A stretch of DNA of 64,000 nt, from positions 62,001-126,000 of the forward strand of contig NZ_JARGZA010000006.1 in NCBI RefSeq assembly GCF_030973515.1, given 5' to 3'. A program made the position numbers and the translations under genes. This document shows positions 3,639-38,729 of this stretch, in pieces. Origin of the DNA: Jannaschia maritima (GTDB lineage Bacteria > Pseudomonadota > Alphaproteobacteria > Rhodobacterales > Rhodobacteraceae). The stretch's first letter is position 1; each line of letters starts with the position of its first letter. The notes beneath the pieces are model-generated. The model had not been told where the DNA came from and searched no databases. It was given only the letters and a program-made list of their open reading frames with translations.

Positions 3639-5064
3639 ATGCGCTTCTGGACGGCCATCGCGCTCATCACCGCCCTGTCCGCGCTGGGCCTCACCTACGA
3701 GATCGCGGCGGGCCGCGTCCTGGCGCCGTTCTTCGGCACGTCGCTCCTGACCTGGACCACCGTGATCGCCGTCGTCCTGGCGGGCTTCGCCGTAGGCAGC
3801 GCCCTGGGGGGCCTGGTCGCCGAACGCCCCCGACCGGCGGCGCTGCGCATCGTGGCCGTCGCGCTGGTGGCGACCGCCGTTCTGATGGCCGTCTCGCCCC
3901 TCGTGCTGGGCCTCGTCTACGGCCTGGGCGCGCGGGGCACGGGCGGCATGGCCCTGGCCGTGACGGTCGCGTTCCTGCCCGCCGCCGTCCTGGTCAGCCT
4001 GCCTTCGCCGCTCCTGGCGAAGATGGCGGTGGAGGCCCGGCCGGGGCGCGAAGGCTCGTCGCTAGGCGCCGTGCTGGCGGCGGGATCGCTGGGGGCCATC
4101 GGGGGGGCGGTGCTGGCGGGCTTCGTGGCCCTGCCGCTGATCGGGTCCACCGCCACCTTCGCGGGCTGCGGCGCGGCGGCGCTCGCGTGCCTGCCGGCGT
4201 TGCGCGGGTCGGGCGCGCCCGACCCCGCCCGGCGTCGCGCTCTGGCCCGGGGCGGTCGCGGTGGCGGGTGCCCTGACCCTGGGTCCGGCTTGCGAATATG
4301 AATCCGGCCTGTCCTGCCTCGACGTCGTAAGCCAGGGCAGCGCCGTCCACCTCCTGTCCGACCGCACCCGGCAGGCCGCCGAACGATCGGGCCCCGCGGG
4401 GGCGCCGGCGGACGAGCCCCTGGTCCTGCCCTACACCCGCTGGATCTGGGACCGGATGGACCGCGACCTGGGACCGGACGCGGCCGTGCTGTTCGTCGGC
4501 GGCGGGGGCTATGGCCTGCCAGCCCGCCTGCTGGCCTCGCGGCCCCGGGCCACCGCCACGGCGGTCGAGATCGACCCCCTTGTCACCCGCGTCGTCCGCG
4601 ACCGCCTGCCCTGGGCCGGCGGCTGGCTCGCCCGCGAGGGGGGCCCGGGCGGGCGCCTGACCGTCGTGCACGCGGACGGCCGCGTGTTCCTGAACGAGGG
4701 GCGGGACCGCTTCGACGCCGCCGTGATGGACGCCTTCTCGTCCGGCGCGGTGCCCGCGCACCTGGCCACCCGCGAAACGTACGACCACCTGCGTGCGCGG
4801 GTGGACGGCCCCGTCTACGTCAACCTGCTCGACCGCCCCGACGGACCCCTGGTGCGCGGGGTACACGCGATCCTGCGCGACGCGTATCCCCATCTGCGCG
4901 CCGTCACGGGGCCGTCCGGGCCGGACGGCATGACCAACACCGTCCTGGCCGCCTCGCCCCGGCCCCTGCCGCCCCTGCCCGCGTTGCCGGACGGCTACGC
5001 CCCCGCGGCGATCGCCCCCGCCCGCGCATTCACCGACGACCGCGGCTGGATCGGGCACCGCTAG
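3639..5064 (+). pseudogene. Membrane-fused spermidine-synthase-like protein, frameshifted
   Basis: Two overlapping reading frames together make one protein. Frame one (from ATG 3639) encodes an MFS-like membrane half: at least five hydrophobic segments, beginning MRFWTAIALITALSALGLTY. It ends at 4301 after turning into an Arg/Gly-rich non-sense sequence from about 4215. The second frame runs to TAG at 5062-5064 and carries the SAM-dependent methyltransferase/spermidine-synthase half: VLFVGGGGYG, AVEIDPLV, VVHADGRVFL and DAAVMDAFSSG. The interval is 1,426 nt, one more than a multiple of three, so one extra base (or two missing) near 4200-4240 explains the break. It could be a real disabling mutation, a sequencing indel in a G/C run, or (less likely) programmed frameshifting. 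An earlier ATG at 3582 would read through the spacer hairpins and is rejected. Confidence 0.8.
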
Positions 5065-33059: not shown

Positions 33060-35255
33060 ATGGACGTCATCGACACGGCCCCCATCCTCGCGCGCAACAA
33101 GACCGTCCCCGGCCGCCCCAAGCTGGAAGGCGGCCGCCGCCTGCGGATGGAAACGAAGTTCGAGCCCGCCGGCGACCAGCCCACCGCCATCGCGGAACTG
33201 TCGCGCGGCGTCGTCGACGGCGAGCGCGACCAGGTCCTGCTGGGCGCCACCGGCACGGGCAAGACCTTCACCATGGCCAAGATCATCGAGGAGACGCAGC
33301 GCCCCGCCATCATCCTGGCCCCCAACAAGACCCTGGCGGCGCAACTCTACGGCGAGTTCAAGGGCTTCTTTCCGGACAACGCGGTCGAGTACTTCGTGTC
33401 CTACTACGACTACTACCAGCCCGAAGCCTATGTCGCGCGGTCGGACACGTATATCGAGAAGGAATCCCAGATAAACGAGCAGATCGACCGGATGCGCCAC
33501 TCGGCCACCCGGGCGCTCCTGGAACGCGACGACGTCATCATCGTCGCCTCCGTCTCGTGCATCTACGGCATCGGCAGCGTCGAGACCTACGGCGCGATGA
33601 CCCAGGACCTGATCGCGGGGACCGAGTACGACCAGCGCAAGGTCATGGCCGACCTCGTGGCCCAGCAATACCGCCGCAACGACGCCGCCTTCGGACGCGG
33701 CACGTTCCGGGTGCGGGGCGACAGCGTGGAGGTCTGGCCCGCCCACCTGGAGGACCGCGCCTGGCGGCTGTCCTTCTTCGGCGAGGAGCTGGAGGCGATC
33801 CAGGAGTTCGACCCCCTGACCGGCGCCAAGACGGGCGACATGGACAAGATCCGCATCTACGCCAACAGCCACTACGTCACGCCGCGGCCCACGATGCAGC
33901 AGGCCATCAAGGGCATCAAGGCGGAGCTGGCCGTGCGCCTGGACCAGCTGGTCGGCGAAGGGAAGCTCCTGGAGGCCCAGCGCCTGGAGCAGCGCACCAA
34001 GTTCGACCTGGAGATGCTGGAGGCCACGGGCGTCTGCAACGGGATCGAGAACTATTCCCGCTACCTGACGGGCCGCGCGCCGGGCGAGCCGCCCCCCACG
34101 CTGTTCGAGTACATCCCCGACAACGCCATCGTCTTCGCCGACGAATCCCACGTCTCCGTGCCCCAGATCGGGGGCATGTACCGGGGCGACTACCGCCGCA
34201 AGTTCACCCTGGCGGAGCACGGGTTCCGCCTGCCGTCGTGCATGGACAACCGCCCCCTGAAGTTCGAGGAATGGGACGCGATGCGGCCCCAGTCGGTCTT
34301 CGTCAGCGCCACCCCCCAGGCGTGGGAGCTGGAGCAGTCGGGCGGCGTCTTCGCCGAGCAGGTCATCCGCCCCACGGGGTTGCTGGACCCGGAGGTGGAG
34401 ATCCGGCCCGTCGACATGCAGGTGGACGACCTCCTCGACGAGATCCGGCGCGTGACCCAACGCGGCATGCGCACCCTCGTCACCACCCTGACCAAGCGCA
34501 TGGCGGAGGATCTGACGGAGTACTTCCACGAGCAGGGCATCAAGATCCGCTACATGCACAGCGACATCGACACGATCGAGCGGATCGAGATCCTGCGCGA
34601 CCTGCGCCTGGGCGCCTTCGACGTGCTGGTGGGCATCAACCTCCTGCGCGAAGGCCTGGACATCCCCGAATGCGGCCTGGTCGCCATCCTGGACGCCGAC
34701 AAGGAAGGCTTCCTGCGCTCGGAGACGTCGCTGGTGCAGACCATCGGGCGGGCCGCGCGCAACGCCGAAGGCCGCGTCATCATGTACGGCGACCGCATCA
34801 CCGGCTCGATGGAACGCGCCATCGCTGAAACGGACCGCAGGCGCGCCAAGCAGATCGCCTATAACGAGGAGCACGGCATCACGCCGGAAACGGTCAAGAA
34901 GAATGTCGACGACATCCTGGCCGGCCTCTACCAGGGCGACACCGACCAGTCCCGCGTCACAGCCAAGGTCGACAAACCCATGGTCGGCGCCAACCTCCAG
35001 GCCCACCTGGACGGCCTGCGCGCGAGCATGCACAAGGCGGCCGAGAACCTGGAATTCGAGGAGGCGGCGCGGTTGCGGGACGAGGTGAAGCGCCTGGAGG
35101 CGGTGGACCTGGCCGTGGCGGACGACCCGCTGGCGCGGCAGTCGGCGGTGGCGCAGGCTGTGGAGGATGCGCGGAAGGCCGAGGGGCGGAGCACGGCGGG
35201 ACGGCCGGGGCAGCGTGGGGGGAATGTGAAGCGGAAGAGGAAGGGGGGGCGTTAA
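33060..35255 (+). CDS. uvrB: Excinuclease ABC subunit B
   Basis: 731 residues. Walker [11 protein letters not shown], the beta-hairpin [15 protein letters not shown]-like FADESHVS, helicase motif [11 protein letters not shown] and the C-terminal UVR motif ([23 protein letters not shown]) that binds UvrC are all present. It verifies damage in nucleotide excision repair with UvrA and hands over to UvrC. The extension of about 30 residues at each end is common in alphaproteobacteria. G+C falls sharply right after the stop codon. Confidence 0.97.
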
Positions 35256-35310: not shown

Positions 35311-35931
35311 ATGCGTTCTCTTGTTCTTCTTCTAATGCTGAGTTCCCCTGCTCTAGGTGACTATATCTCCGTAAAGCCCAATATCGCCAATCCAAACTAT
35401 CCCACCCACTTCGTTTCAATTTCGGCTTCTGAAAGCGACGGATCGCTGACCTCTTTGTCCATTCGCTGTGAGAATAACTCGACGGATGTCTACGTTAATT
35501 TCGATGGTATATTTGGGCATCGCGGTGTCTTGACCGTACGCTGGAACGGAATGACGGAGGCCAAGAGAATCGCTGCAAATGATGCGACGACTGGGGACGC
35601 GGCCTTCATTCGAAACCCCATTTCTTTTGTCAAAAGGCTCGTCGAGGAAGGAGGTGTCATTCTTGGAGCGACTGGGCATAGCGTGAGGGGTGCGGCTCGT
35701 TTCAGCCCCGAGGAGAACACTGTCGGCGCAATATACGAACTAGCTTCGACTTGTGAGTGGTCGGATCATCTGCCCTCCAGGGAGGATCAGGAAACTACGT
35801 CTGAGACTAGGGTAGATTTGGCTGAAGAAGAGGTCATTCGAAACATAATTCTTCTACAGAAAGGCAAGCTGCGGTCTGTTGGTCGCACACGTGTGATAGC
35901 GATCCTTGATCAAGAACTTGGGGCATGGTGA
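35311..35931 (+). CDS. Low-G+C secreted protein resembling TagO/VasI-type domains
   Basis: 206 residues, with a signal peptide MRSLVLLLMLSSPALGDY. The pattern LSIRCENNSTDVYVNFDGIF, VTVRWNG-like strand, ENTVGAIYELASTCEW resembles the domain of the T6SS-associated TagO/VasI family and many phage or orphan relatives. No T6SS gene is near, so a T6SS role is not implied. Base composition is near 50% G+C with many A/T-ending codons, against about 72% around it: a strong sign of recent transfer. It stands between uvrB and the REP/RAYT block. Confidence 0.6.
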   Translation: MRSLVLLLMLSSPALGDYISVKPNIANPNYPTHFVSISASESDGSLTSLSIRCENNSTDVYVNFDGIFGHRGVLTVRWNGMTEAKRIAANDATTGDAAFIRNPISFVKRLVEEGGVILGATGHSVRGAARFSPEENTVGAIYELASTCEWSDHLPSREDQETTSETRVDLAEEEVIRNIILLQKGKLRSVGRTRVIAILDQELGAW

Positions 35932-36032
35932 TTGCGGCGCAATCGTAAGTAAGACGCAGAGTGGGCATCACCACGGCCACCGTCCCACGTCTGCAAACCA
36001 TCCAACCGTCCCATCTGCGGCACCGTCTCCCT

Positions 36033-36060
36033 GGTGGGCGTGGTGACACCCACCCTACGG
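36033..36060 (-). repeat. REP element 1
   Basis: GGTGGG (36033-36038) pairs with CCCACC (36049-36054), followed by CTACG. On the minus strand it reads GTAG then the hairpin, the orientation recognised by RAYT enzymes. Loop and inner stem are diverged from REP3-5. Confidence 0.7.
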
Positions 36061-36160
36061 GCGATCGACACACCGGTCATCCGCACCAATCCGCCAGCGC
36101 ATCGCCGTGGCGCGCGGCTTGGTGGAACGACGAACACGGCCAATCGACGGACCGCACCCG

Positions 36161-36185
36161 GTAGGTTGGGCCTGCACGGCCCACC
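36161..36185 (+). repeat. REP element 2
   Basis: GTAG head at 36161, then TGGGCC (36167-36172) pairing with GGCCCA (36178-36183). It is a diverged copy on the plus strand. Confidence 0.6.
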
Positions 36186-36209
36186 ATCCGATGGTTCCAC
36201 TATCCCCCC

Positions 36210-36235
36210 GGTGGGCGATGAACGCCCACCCTACG
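36210..36235 (-). repeat. REP element 3, contains the RAYT stop codon
   Basis: GGTGGGCG (36210-36217), loop ATGAA, CGCCCACC (36223-36230), then CTACG. On the minus strand it begins CGTAG. The TAG of this head (36233-36231) is the stop codon of the RAYT gene. Confidence 0.85.
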
Positions 36236-36734
36236 ACCAACCCGTCCAATCCGGCGGCACGTCGCCCGCTGCCACTGCGTCATGAAACGACGAATGGGGC
36301 CAATCGACGGGCCGCTGCACCAAGCCGTGCCGCACGGGGTTCGTCCAACAATACGCCACAGCCGCGCGCATCTGCGCCTCGTCGCGGATCATCCGCTCGA
36401 AGTACCGACGCTGCCATATCCCGCGTTCGCGCCTGCGCGCCTTGCTGTCCGACCGCGCGGGCCGAACGTTCAGGGCGTGCGTGAACCGGGCCTTGATGAC
36501 CTGCCATCGCGTCGGGAAATCGGAGTCATCGTCAGGCAGGGTCCAGATCGCGTGCAGATGATCCGGCAGGATGACGAGCGCGGGACAGGTGAACGGACGC
36601 TCCGCCTGCGTCCGCCTCCACGCATCCCGGAACGCGCAGACCTCGTCGGTCAGCGTGGTTCCCGTCCGGTCGGCCAAAGCGACCGTAAAGAAATAGCTAT
36701 GTCCCGCATGTCGGAAGCGGCGATAGTCCGGCAT
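36231..36734 (-). CDS. REP-associated tyrosine transposase (RAYT, Y1/IS200-like)
   Basis: 167 residues. The HUH motif lies in LPDHLHAIWTLP (His-Leu-His), and the catalytic tyrosine is in AAVAYCWTNPVRHGLV near the C-terminus; GHSYFFTVAL at the N-terminus and RGIWQRRYFERMI are further family marks. RAYTs are single-copy, domesticated relatives of IS200 transposases that bind and cut REP hairpins with a 5' GTAG. REPs flank this gene on both sides, with one overlapping its stop codon, so it forms a REPtron. It appears intact. Confidence 0.92.
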   Translation of the reverse strand: MPDYRRFRHAGHSYFFTVALADRTGTTLTDEVCAFRDAWRRTQAERPFTCPALVILPDHLHAIWTLPDDDSDFPTRWQVIKARFTHALNVRPARSDSKARRRERGIWQRRYFERMIRDEAQMRAAVAYCWTNPVRHGLVQRPVDWPHSSFHDAVAAGDVPPDWTGWS

Positions 36735-36765
36735 GCGCCATCTTCGCCAGAAGACATGAACGAAC

Positions 36766-36791
36766 CGTAGGGTGGGCGTTCATCGCCCACC
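36766..36791 (+). repeat. REP element 4
   Basis: CGTAG head (36766-36770), GGTGGGCG (36771-36778), loop TTCAT, CGCCCACC (36784-36791). It is identical in stem and loop to REP3 and REP5 but opposite in direction. It sits upstream of the RAYT start. Confidence 0.85.
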
Positions 36792-36807
36792 GGTCGGGTC
36801 ATGCCAT

Positions 36808-36833
36808 GGTGGGCGATGAACGCCCACCCTACC
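36808..36833 (-). repeat. REP element 5, contains the stop codon of the next gene
   Basis: GGTGGGCG (36808-36815), loop ATGAA, CGCCCACC (36821-36828), CTACC. Together with REP4, 16 bases away, it forms an inverted REP pair (BIME-like). Its TAG (36831-36829) ends the small membrane protein gene on the minus strand. Confidence 0.85.
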
Positions 36834-37104
36834 GCTTCCCCGACACCGCCCGCACCAACGCCACGACCGCCGCCGCCGCCACCGCGCCCACGACCAGCAG
36901 CAGCACCACGCCGCCCGCGGCCAGCACCGTCACGCCCAGCAGCGCCAGCACGAAGGGGGCCGCCATCGCGGCCACCGCGCCGATGATGCCATAGAGCAGG
37001 ACGCCCCGCCGCAGCAGCATCCCCAGCGCCGCGCCCACGGCGAAGCCGATCACCGCCAGGATCACCAGGGCCGTGATGCCGATGCCGCCCAATACGCCTT
37101 CCAT
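36829..37104 (-). CDS. Small hydrophobic membrane protein
   Basis: 91 residues, nearly all hydrophobic: helices near 7-28 (GITALVILAVIGFAVGAALG), 35-58 and 60-85. Only short charged links (LRRG, VRAVSGKR) interrupt. No family recognised. The start at 37104 gives MEGVLGGIG; the upstream frame adds a poor leader. The stop codon lies in REP5, so the original C-terminus may have been altered by the REP insertion. Confidence 0.6.
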   Translation of the reverse strand: MEGVLGGIGITALVILAVIGFAVGAALGMLLRRGVLLYGIIGAVAAMAAPFVLALLGVTVLAAGGVVLLLVVGAVAAAAVVALVRAVSGKR

Positions 37105-37210
37105 GTGCGATCCCTCCCGCGGTTGCGCCAAGGCCAACGGACGATCCCCCCGGCGGTTCCATTCCGGCCCCGTACACCGACCGTTAACCGCCGCCGCCCA
37201 TCAGGGGGCG

Positions 37211-37951
37211 ATGCGCCCGATCCTCGCCGCCCTGCTCCTGCTGCTCCCGCTCCCCGTCCCGCCCGCCGCCGCCGGGCCCTGGCCGCGCGCGCCCGGCGTG
37301 GCCTACGTGTTCACGGGGTTGGAGCACGAGGTGAACGGCTGGAACGCCCTCTACGTCGAATACGGCCTGCCCTGGCGCGACCTGACCCTGGGGCTGGAGG
37401 CCGGCGCCCGCCTGGCGGGGACGGTCACGGCGAATCCCGACCACCCGATGGAGGGCCGCGCGCGGCTGTTCGTGCGTCTGCCCGTCCTGTCCGGGTCCGA
37501 CCGCCGCGCGGCGCGGCCGCCCTGGCTGGAACCCTGGCTGATGGCGGTGGAGCTGGGCGTGGCCGTGGACCACGACCCCCTGGCGCTGGACCGCGACCTG
37601 CGGCCCGCCCCCTATACGCATCTCCGCGGCAGCCTGGGCGTCACGGTGGGGCGCGGCCTGTCCACGCCCCTGGGCGACGGGTGGACGACAGTCGATCTGC
37701 GCACGACCCTGGGCGGTGGCGACGGCGGCGGCGGACGCCGGACGAAGGCGGCCTGGACCTTGGGCGTGAAGCCGACCCCCCGCATCGCGGTCGACCTGAC
37801 GGTGGCGGCGGAACGCGCGCGCTTCGATTCGTGGTCGGTCGCGCCCAGCGTCCAGATCGGGCTGGGCCGCTTCGGCGACGGTCGGATCGGGGTGATCCAC
37901 AAGGACGACGGCCGCACGCTGATGACCGTGGGCCTGGCGCGGACGTTCTAG
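37211..37951 (+). CDS. Probable outer-membrane beta-barrel protein, unknown
   Basis: 246 residues with signal peptide MRPILAALLLLLPLPVPPAA. The mature part alternates hydrophobic/polar strands (LYVEYGLPWRDLTLGLEAGARL, WTLGVKPTPRIAVDLTVAAER) and ends in a C-terminal phenylalanine (LARTF), the signature for BAM-dependent insertion. The family is not recognised. The stop TAG lies in the CTAG that also borders the insertion sequence; the coding sequence is intact. Confidence 0.65.
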   Translation: MRPILAALLLLLPLPVPPAAAGPWPRAPGVAYVFTGLEHEVNGWNALYVEYGLPWRDLTLGLEAGARLAGTVTANPDHPMEGRARLFVRLPVLSGSDRRAARPPWLEPWLMAVELGVAVDHDPLALDRDLRPAPYTHLRGSLGVTVGRGLSTPLGDGWTTVDLRTTLGGGDGGGGRRTKAAWTLGVKPTPRIAVDLTVAAERARFDSWSVAPSVQIGLGRFGDGRIGVIHKDDGRTLMTVGLARTF

Positions 37952-38729
37952 GCCCTGTTAGACAACCGATCGATGATCGCTGCGATGTGGAGTGCGCCTT
38001 GGTATGAGGCGGCGGTCTTGTCGTATCGTGTGGAGACGGCGCGCCATTCCTTGAGCCTGGCCCAGAGGTTCTCGACCTTGTGGCGGCGGGCATAGGCGCG
38101 ACGGTCGTAGCAGACGGGCGGGTGCGTGCGGTTGGCGGGGACGCATTGATCGGCGCCCGCCTCCTCGATCATCAGCCGCCACGGGCGTGACGAGTAGGCC
38201 CTGTCGCAGACCACGCGCCCTACTTGTCCAAGGGCGGTCACGGTGGCGAGCAGCGAAGGCGCCGCCCGAAGCTCGGAGGCCTGCCCGCACAGCAGGACGA
38301 AGGCCAGCGCGAGGCCGCGCGCGTCGCAGGCCACCACCGCCTTGCTGCCGTAGCCGCCGCGCGACCGCCCGAGGGCATGGGCTATGCGCCCCCTTTTGCC
38401 CCGGCCGCTTTGTGATGGGCGCGGATCGACGTGCCGTCCACGAACACCTCCTCCAACGCAGGACCGCCACCCCACGTCCCGGCGTCGCGGATGTGGGCGA
38501 AGGCGCGCTCCCACACGCCCAGGCGGGACCAGCGGATGTGCAGCTGCGCCGCCCGCCACCACGGTCCGAACCGCCCGGGCAGACTTCGCCACTTCGCCCC
38601 GTTGCGCATCCGCCAGACGATGCCCTCGACCACCGAACGCTCGTCGCGCAACGGACGTCCCGTCCCGGACCGTGCCGCATCCAGGGCCGCCTTCAGCACG
38701 GCCCACTCCTTATCCGTAAGCTCAGACAT
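37948..38729 (-). CDS. IS5/IS427-type transposase made by -1 frameshifting
   Basis: OrfA (38729-38382, 115 aa) begins MSELTDKEWAVLKAAL and supplies the helix-turn-helix region and the first catalytic Asp in VDGTSIRAHH. OrfB lies in the -1 frame and supplies VVCDRAYSS (second Asp) and RRHKVENLWARLKEWR (catalytic Glu). Both frames overlap at A4G5 (38397-38389 on the minus strand), a slippery run where AAA can re-pair one base back. The fused product is about 260 aa. The OrfB stop TAG is contributed by the flanking CTAG rather than the element itself. All DDE residues are present. Confidence 0.85.

Follow-up and report, generated by a model that had tools for sequence, protein, structure and literature searches.

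The window, that is the whole 64,000-nt stretch of DNA analysed here, very probably carries a genuine REPtron, because the NCBIfam profile NF047646 (REP_Tyr_transpos) matched a 167-aa ORF at 175 bits (E 7e-52; cut-off, 80 bits), because PDB entry 4er8 (E. coli TnpArep) aligned with the same ORF end to end, over residues 1-165 (E 3e-35), and because inverted REP hairpins lie on both sides of the gene (Table 1). Both matches place the protein in the sequence family of the REP-associated tyrosine transposases (RAYTs). The locus is of a kind already known, and what it adds is one more REPtron.

Table 1. Features of the REPtron, its neighbours and the third RAYT locus of the same genome; positions refer to the window unless a contig is given.
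Feature	Position	Strand	Description
uvrB	33060..35255	plus	convergent neighbour; name given from its sequence; all 20 congeners share the conserved C-terminus
REP1	36033..36058	minus	GTAGGGTGGGTGTCACCACGCCCACC; 9-bp stem including one T.G, CACC loop; older type
RAYT 3'-end relic	36080..36157	minus	between REP1 and REP2; encodes VRSVDWPCSSFHQAARHGDALADWCG, then TGA
REP2	36161..36185	plus	GTAGGTTGGGCCTGCACGGCCCACC; degenerate, GTAGGT, one mismatch; tail-to-tail with REP3
REP3	36210..36234	minus	GTAGGGTGGGCGTTCATCGCCCACC; head towards RAYT 3' end, gives RAYT TAG stop
RAYT (REP-associated tyrosine transposase, TnpAREP)	36231..36734	minus	167 aa; ATG to TAG, no internal stop
REP4	36767..36791	plus	letters as REP3; head towards RAYT 5' end
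REP5	36808..36832	minus	letters as REP3; head gives orf102 TAG stop
orf102	36829..37137	minus	small protein kept beside uvrB in several congeners; usual C-terminus; TAG stop inside REP5 head
RAYT locus C41 (L031)	G000:C41:128122-128578		frameshifted near residue 90-96, two pieces in different frames

The RAYT gene and its hairpins

The protein has an HUH motif (HLH in PDHLHAIW) and a single catalytic tyrosine, the Y of AYCWTNP, which stands opposite Y115 of the E. coli protein in the 4er8 alignment. In a profile search with Pfam PF01797 the window RAYT stayed below the threshold, and the same profile gave zero matches in the whole genome, which is a limit of its sensitivity, since other searches found RAYT loci there. 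Two inverted GTAG palindromes, REP3 and REP4, enclose the gene. The description of an intact RAYT gene with REP hairpins on both sides, as given in the first-pass annotation, was thus borne out, as was the identity of the gene.

All hairpins have a GTAG head on a GC-rich palindrome, as in the REP family. REP3, REP4 and REP5 are letter-identical (GTAGGGTGGGCGTTCATCGCCCACC) on alternating strands, with a perfect 8-bp stem and a 5-nt loop, and fold as single-stranded DNA at -10.9 kcal/mol (z -7.8); folding is weaker in REP1, with its T.G pair, and in the degenerate REP2. A search for the structured hairpin pattern returned four matches in the window as compared to none in 100 shuffles, and this, together with the folding z-score, rules out chance hairpins. 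REP4 and REP5, correctly described at first pass as an inverted pair with a 16-nt spacer, form a 66-bp tail-to-tail unit that is REPIN-like. REP2 and REP3 are likewise arranged tail-to-tail, so that both are inverted pairs with heads outward, as in REPINs and BIMEs, and the two pairs are mutually inverted across the RAYT gene (75% over 77 bp).

The stem and loop plan divides the hairpins into at least two types. The current type, REP3 to REP5, is built as 8+TTCAT+8, while REP1 and REP2 are of other make; REP1 shares a 9+CACC+9 plan with the REPs of genome G009 (GTAGGGTGGGCATCACCATGCCCACC). The reading of the locus as a matched system stands as far as gene family, architecture and relatives are concerned, but the five hairpins do not make up a single matched set. 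Terminators and known RNA families were also considered for the hairpins and rejected: no U-tract terminator was found at them, and they had no match in Rfam.

The relic between REP1 and REP2 has 60% amino acid identity to residues 141-165 of the window RAYT and 75% nucleotide identity over 71 bp (E 5e-7). The window RAYT is its closest RAYT, tied with one from Pseudomonas; at a length of 25 aa, the ranking of the other RAYTs is uninformative. Nunvar et al. 2010 (PMC2817692) reported that BIMEs take up RAYT 3' ends.

REP types and RAYT loci in the genome

We searched the genome (3.67 Mb, 99.98% complete) for further REPs of the window type, in which the head is followed by the stem letters GGTGGGCG in the hairpin strand (GTAG-GGTGGGCG). 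The first-pass annotation had proposed this search for many copies, and had held that its reading would fall if there were no others with the same head and stem. With up to three mismatches allowed, the type was found in only three places, all at the RAYT locus; it has not spread through the genome, and the high copy number of a REP family is absent. Taken at its word, the refuting condition set at first pass has thus come true. The REPtron reading stands nonetheless, because earlier studies (PMC2817692, PMC3733652, PMC8266576) describe REPtrons whose REPs lie mostly close to the gene and REPtrons that lack a corresponding REP family, and because the broader GTAGGN-TGGG class has 21 members in the genome. 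Three copies, all of them local, are no guide to current mobility. Among 395 genomes of the family, the window type had only two single near matches outside its own genome, with two mismatches each.

The RAYT is not single-copy, a point that had been raised at first pass, but one of three RAYT loci in the genome. The RAYT at locus C11 is 48% identical to that of the window and is accompanied by REPs of the form GTAGGGTGGGTGNAACCCACC (hairpin GGTGGGT), a type (TGNAACCCACC) that is present in 14 copies in the genome. The frameshifted RAYT at locus C41 sits among four REPs of a CGGGG type (GTAGGGCGGGGTTCACCCCGCC). Each of these two loci thus carries a hairpin type of its own that differs from the window type. 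The congeners contain RAYT loci of like plan, and where REPs lie close to a RAYT, the stem type is in most cases particular to that RAYT; in G009, GCATCACCATGC is dispersed in about 20 copies.

History of the uvrB/orf102 gap

The convergent genes uvrB and orf102 adjoin in several congeners. In G001 the gap between them is about 160 bp long and without REPs; in G004 and in G005 it has a single REP, which is of another type; and in G009 it contains a RAYT in the same orientation as in the window. The RAYTs of the window and G009 are 52% identical; the UvrB C-termini are 89% identical. Taken as a set, the loci offer a view of the probable replacement of REP types at a single site. Two further features of the surroundings were noted. 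A 206-aa ORF between uvrB and the REPtron (35311-35931, plus strand) has no family match and is absent beside uvrB in the congeners, and 37948-38729 on the minus strand encodes an IS5-type transposase spread over two frames that overlap, the first matching PF13340 and the next PF01609.

The likeliest history, which we favour somewhat over the others on sequence comparison, is that one ancestral insertion in the gap was followed by fast divergence of the RAYT and by replacement of its REP type; the RAYTs of the window and G009 would then be orthologous. The tree neither joined the window RAYT to that of G009 nor split the two (sisterhood costs 0.23 log units, p-AU 0.56), and the long branch of the window RAYT left its placement unfixed, so that an independent insertion is a possibility, albeit a doubtful one. 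The REPtron would then have come by recent horizontal transfer into a gap reused by REPs, ousting an older one that left REP1 and the relic behind. Such an arrival fits a REP type that is unique among the 395 family genomes with all copies at the locus, the different REP types in the gap of G004 and G005, and the interpretation of locus-proximal REPs as recent arrivals (PMC2817692, PMC8266576). The gap and orientation shared with the G009 RAYT argue against it, as does a relic that is closest to the window RAYT (in the tie mentioned above) and not to that of G009.

Proposed mechanism and alternatives

Whereas gene identity, hairpins, copy numbers, synteny and the relic were observed directly, the binding and cleavage of the flanking hairpins by the window RAYT are proposed by analogy with studied RAYTs. 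The latter bind the REP strand as a folded single-stranded hairpin, with GTAG as recognition and guide sequence, cut at a nearby dinucleotide via the tyrosine and then rejoin the ends (PMC8266576). The window RAYT is very probably a domesticated IS200/IS605-like HUH/Y1 nuclease in a resident REPtron, which would recognise the GTAG-headed hairpin beside its own gene as single-stranded DNA and could cleave and rejoin it. An old REP type (9+CACC+9) would survive as REP1, REP3 to REP5 would represent the new one (8+TTCAT+8), and the decayed RAYT 3' end would be the leftover of a local BIME-type duplication.

It is unlikely, although compatible with this mechanism, that the hairpins serve mainly as RNA elements, at transcript ends, in mRNA protection or in ribosome stalling at the overlapping stops, with the RAYT as a passenger. 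Their position at convergent gene ends and the overlap of REP3 and REP5 with stop codons would suit such roles, and in E. coli, REPs that lie no more than 15 nt from a stop codon have been reported to stall ribosomes (cited in PMC12306157). The lack of a U-tract terminator and of an Rfam match speaks against them, and the identical inverted copies around the RAYT and the RAYT-specific stem types would be left unexplained. That the locus is a dead remnant with all activity lost seems quite improbable. The presence of only three identical copies, the tail relic and the frameshift in one other RAYT of the genome would suit such a remnant; against it stand the intact ORF with its HUH motif and tyrosine, and three hairpins that have kept identical letters and perfect pairing where REP1 and REP2 have decayed.

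REP heads as stop codons

The TAG in the head of REP3 is the stop codon of the RAYT gene and that in the head of REP5 is the stop codon of orf102. To quantify the overlap, 164 distinct REPs from loci of the family were used, with coding frames judged by codon-position GC. In this test, which was chosen after the window had been seen and used loci partly sampled by REP presence, the head TAG served as stop in 12 of the 16 coding frames open into the head (p 8e-4), and in 10 of 14 without the two window cases (p 0.004). Only 7 of 11 frames used it when the RAYTs and one doubtful ORF were also dropped (p 0.04), and 6 of 10 when orf102 was further removed (p 0.08). Across the 164 REPs, 12 genes stop exactly on the head, as compared to about 0.6 expected per position from the 60 nt upstream; the seven non-RAYT genes alone give a Poisson p of 3e-6. 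Five of the six non-RAYT genes besides orf102 pass the Pfam cut-off (LpxK, 3-hydroxyisobutyrate dehydrogenase, an RF-1 domain, an MGS domain and peptide deformylase), and the sixth, a HAD-like hydrolase, is just under it.

In the four genes compared (LpxK, HAD, 3-hydroxyisobutyrate dehydrogenase and orf102), the C-terminus lies inside the range of ends of the orthologs, with no truncation. Among relatives without a REP, those nearest for LpxK and HAD stop with TAG and every one for the dehydrogenase stops with TGA, whereas for orf102 the stop codons are mixed. These results support the placement of REPs exactly at stop codons, and in two of the four genes they support a TAG that was present before the REP. 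That the ends of GTAG REPs frequently supply a TAG stop was stated earlier by Di Nocera et al. 2013 (PMC3733652), so the overlap reported here is a quantification and no discovery. Tentatively, REPs might insert at existing GTAG sites, with the head at least partly the target tetranucleotide, like TTAC for IS608; if so, genes ending in G-TAG would be natural landing sites at which the exact C-terminus is kept. The overlap makes the choice of REP insertion site answerable by strain-level genome comparison. In Vannielia (L104), a gene whose gyrase B C-terminal domain is complete stops at the TAG of a REP head that lies at position 4828 on the minus strand.

Comparison with known systems

We compared the locus with the REPtrons described previously (Nunvar 2010, PMC2817692; Di Nocera 2013, PMC3733652). 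It resembles them in a RAYT gene enclosed by GTAG REPs in inverted arrangement, REPs specific to their RAYT, fast in-place RAYT evolution with 3' ends absorbed into BIMEs, and in locus-proximal REPs, as well as in the occurrence of REPtrons without a REP family. It differs from them in a host whose RAYT has its nearest relatives among Alphaproteobacteria (Paracoccaceae, Roseobacteraceae) and in an exact REP type that is limited to three copies. The short perfect stem after GTAG and the small loop recall Group 3-type REPs (S. maltophilia Sm, Marinomonas Mb; PMC8266576), but stem and loop sequences differ and the likeness is one of REP shape only. E. coli TnpAREP (4er8) aligns with conserved HUH and tyrosine, whereas 13 residues are inserted ahead of GIWQRR in the window protein and the REPs of E. 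coli are long, with bulges. GTAG REPs that give TAG stops and intragenic REPs (PMC3733652) are matched by the heads of REP3 and REP5; unlike in that study, the overlap was here quantified by distance and checked against orthologous C-termini.

In-frame translated REPs were also observed in five RAYT ORFs of other genomes (L015 in G013, L012 in G030, L030 in G009 C12, L100 in Ruegeria and L017 in G028), where they sit inside the variable linker that precedes the GxWQRRFWEH motif. They are probably repeated events, because the REP types differ among the five. Outside RAYT genes, REPs are read through in frame in a carboxyltransferase-like and a valyl-tRNA-synthetase-like gene (L273 and L232; names assigned by eye).
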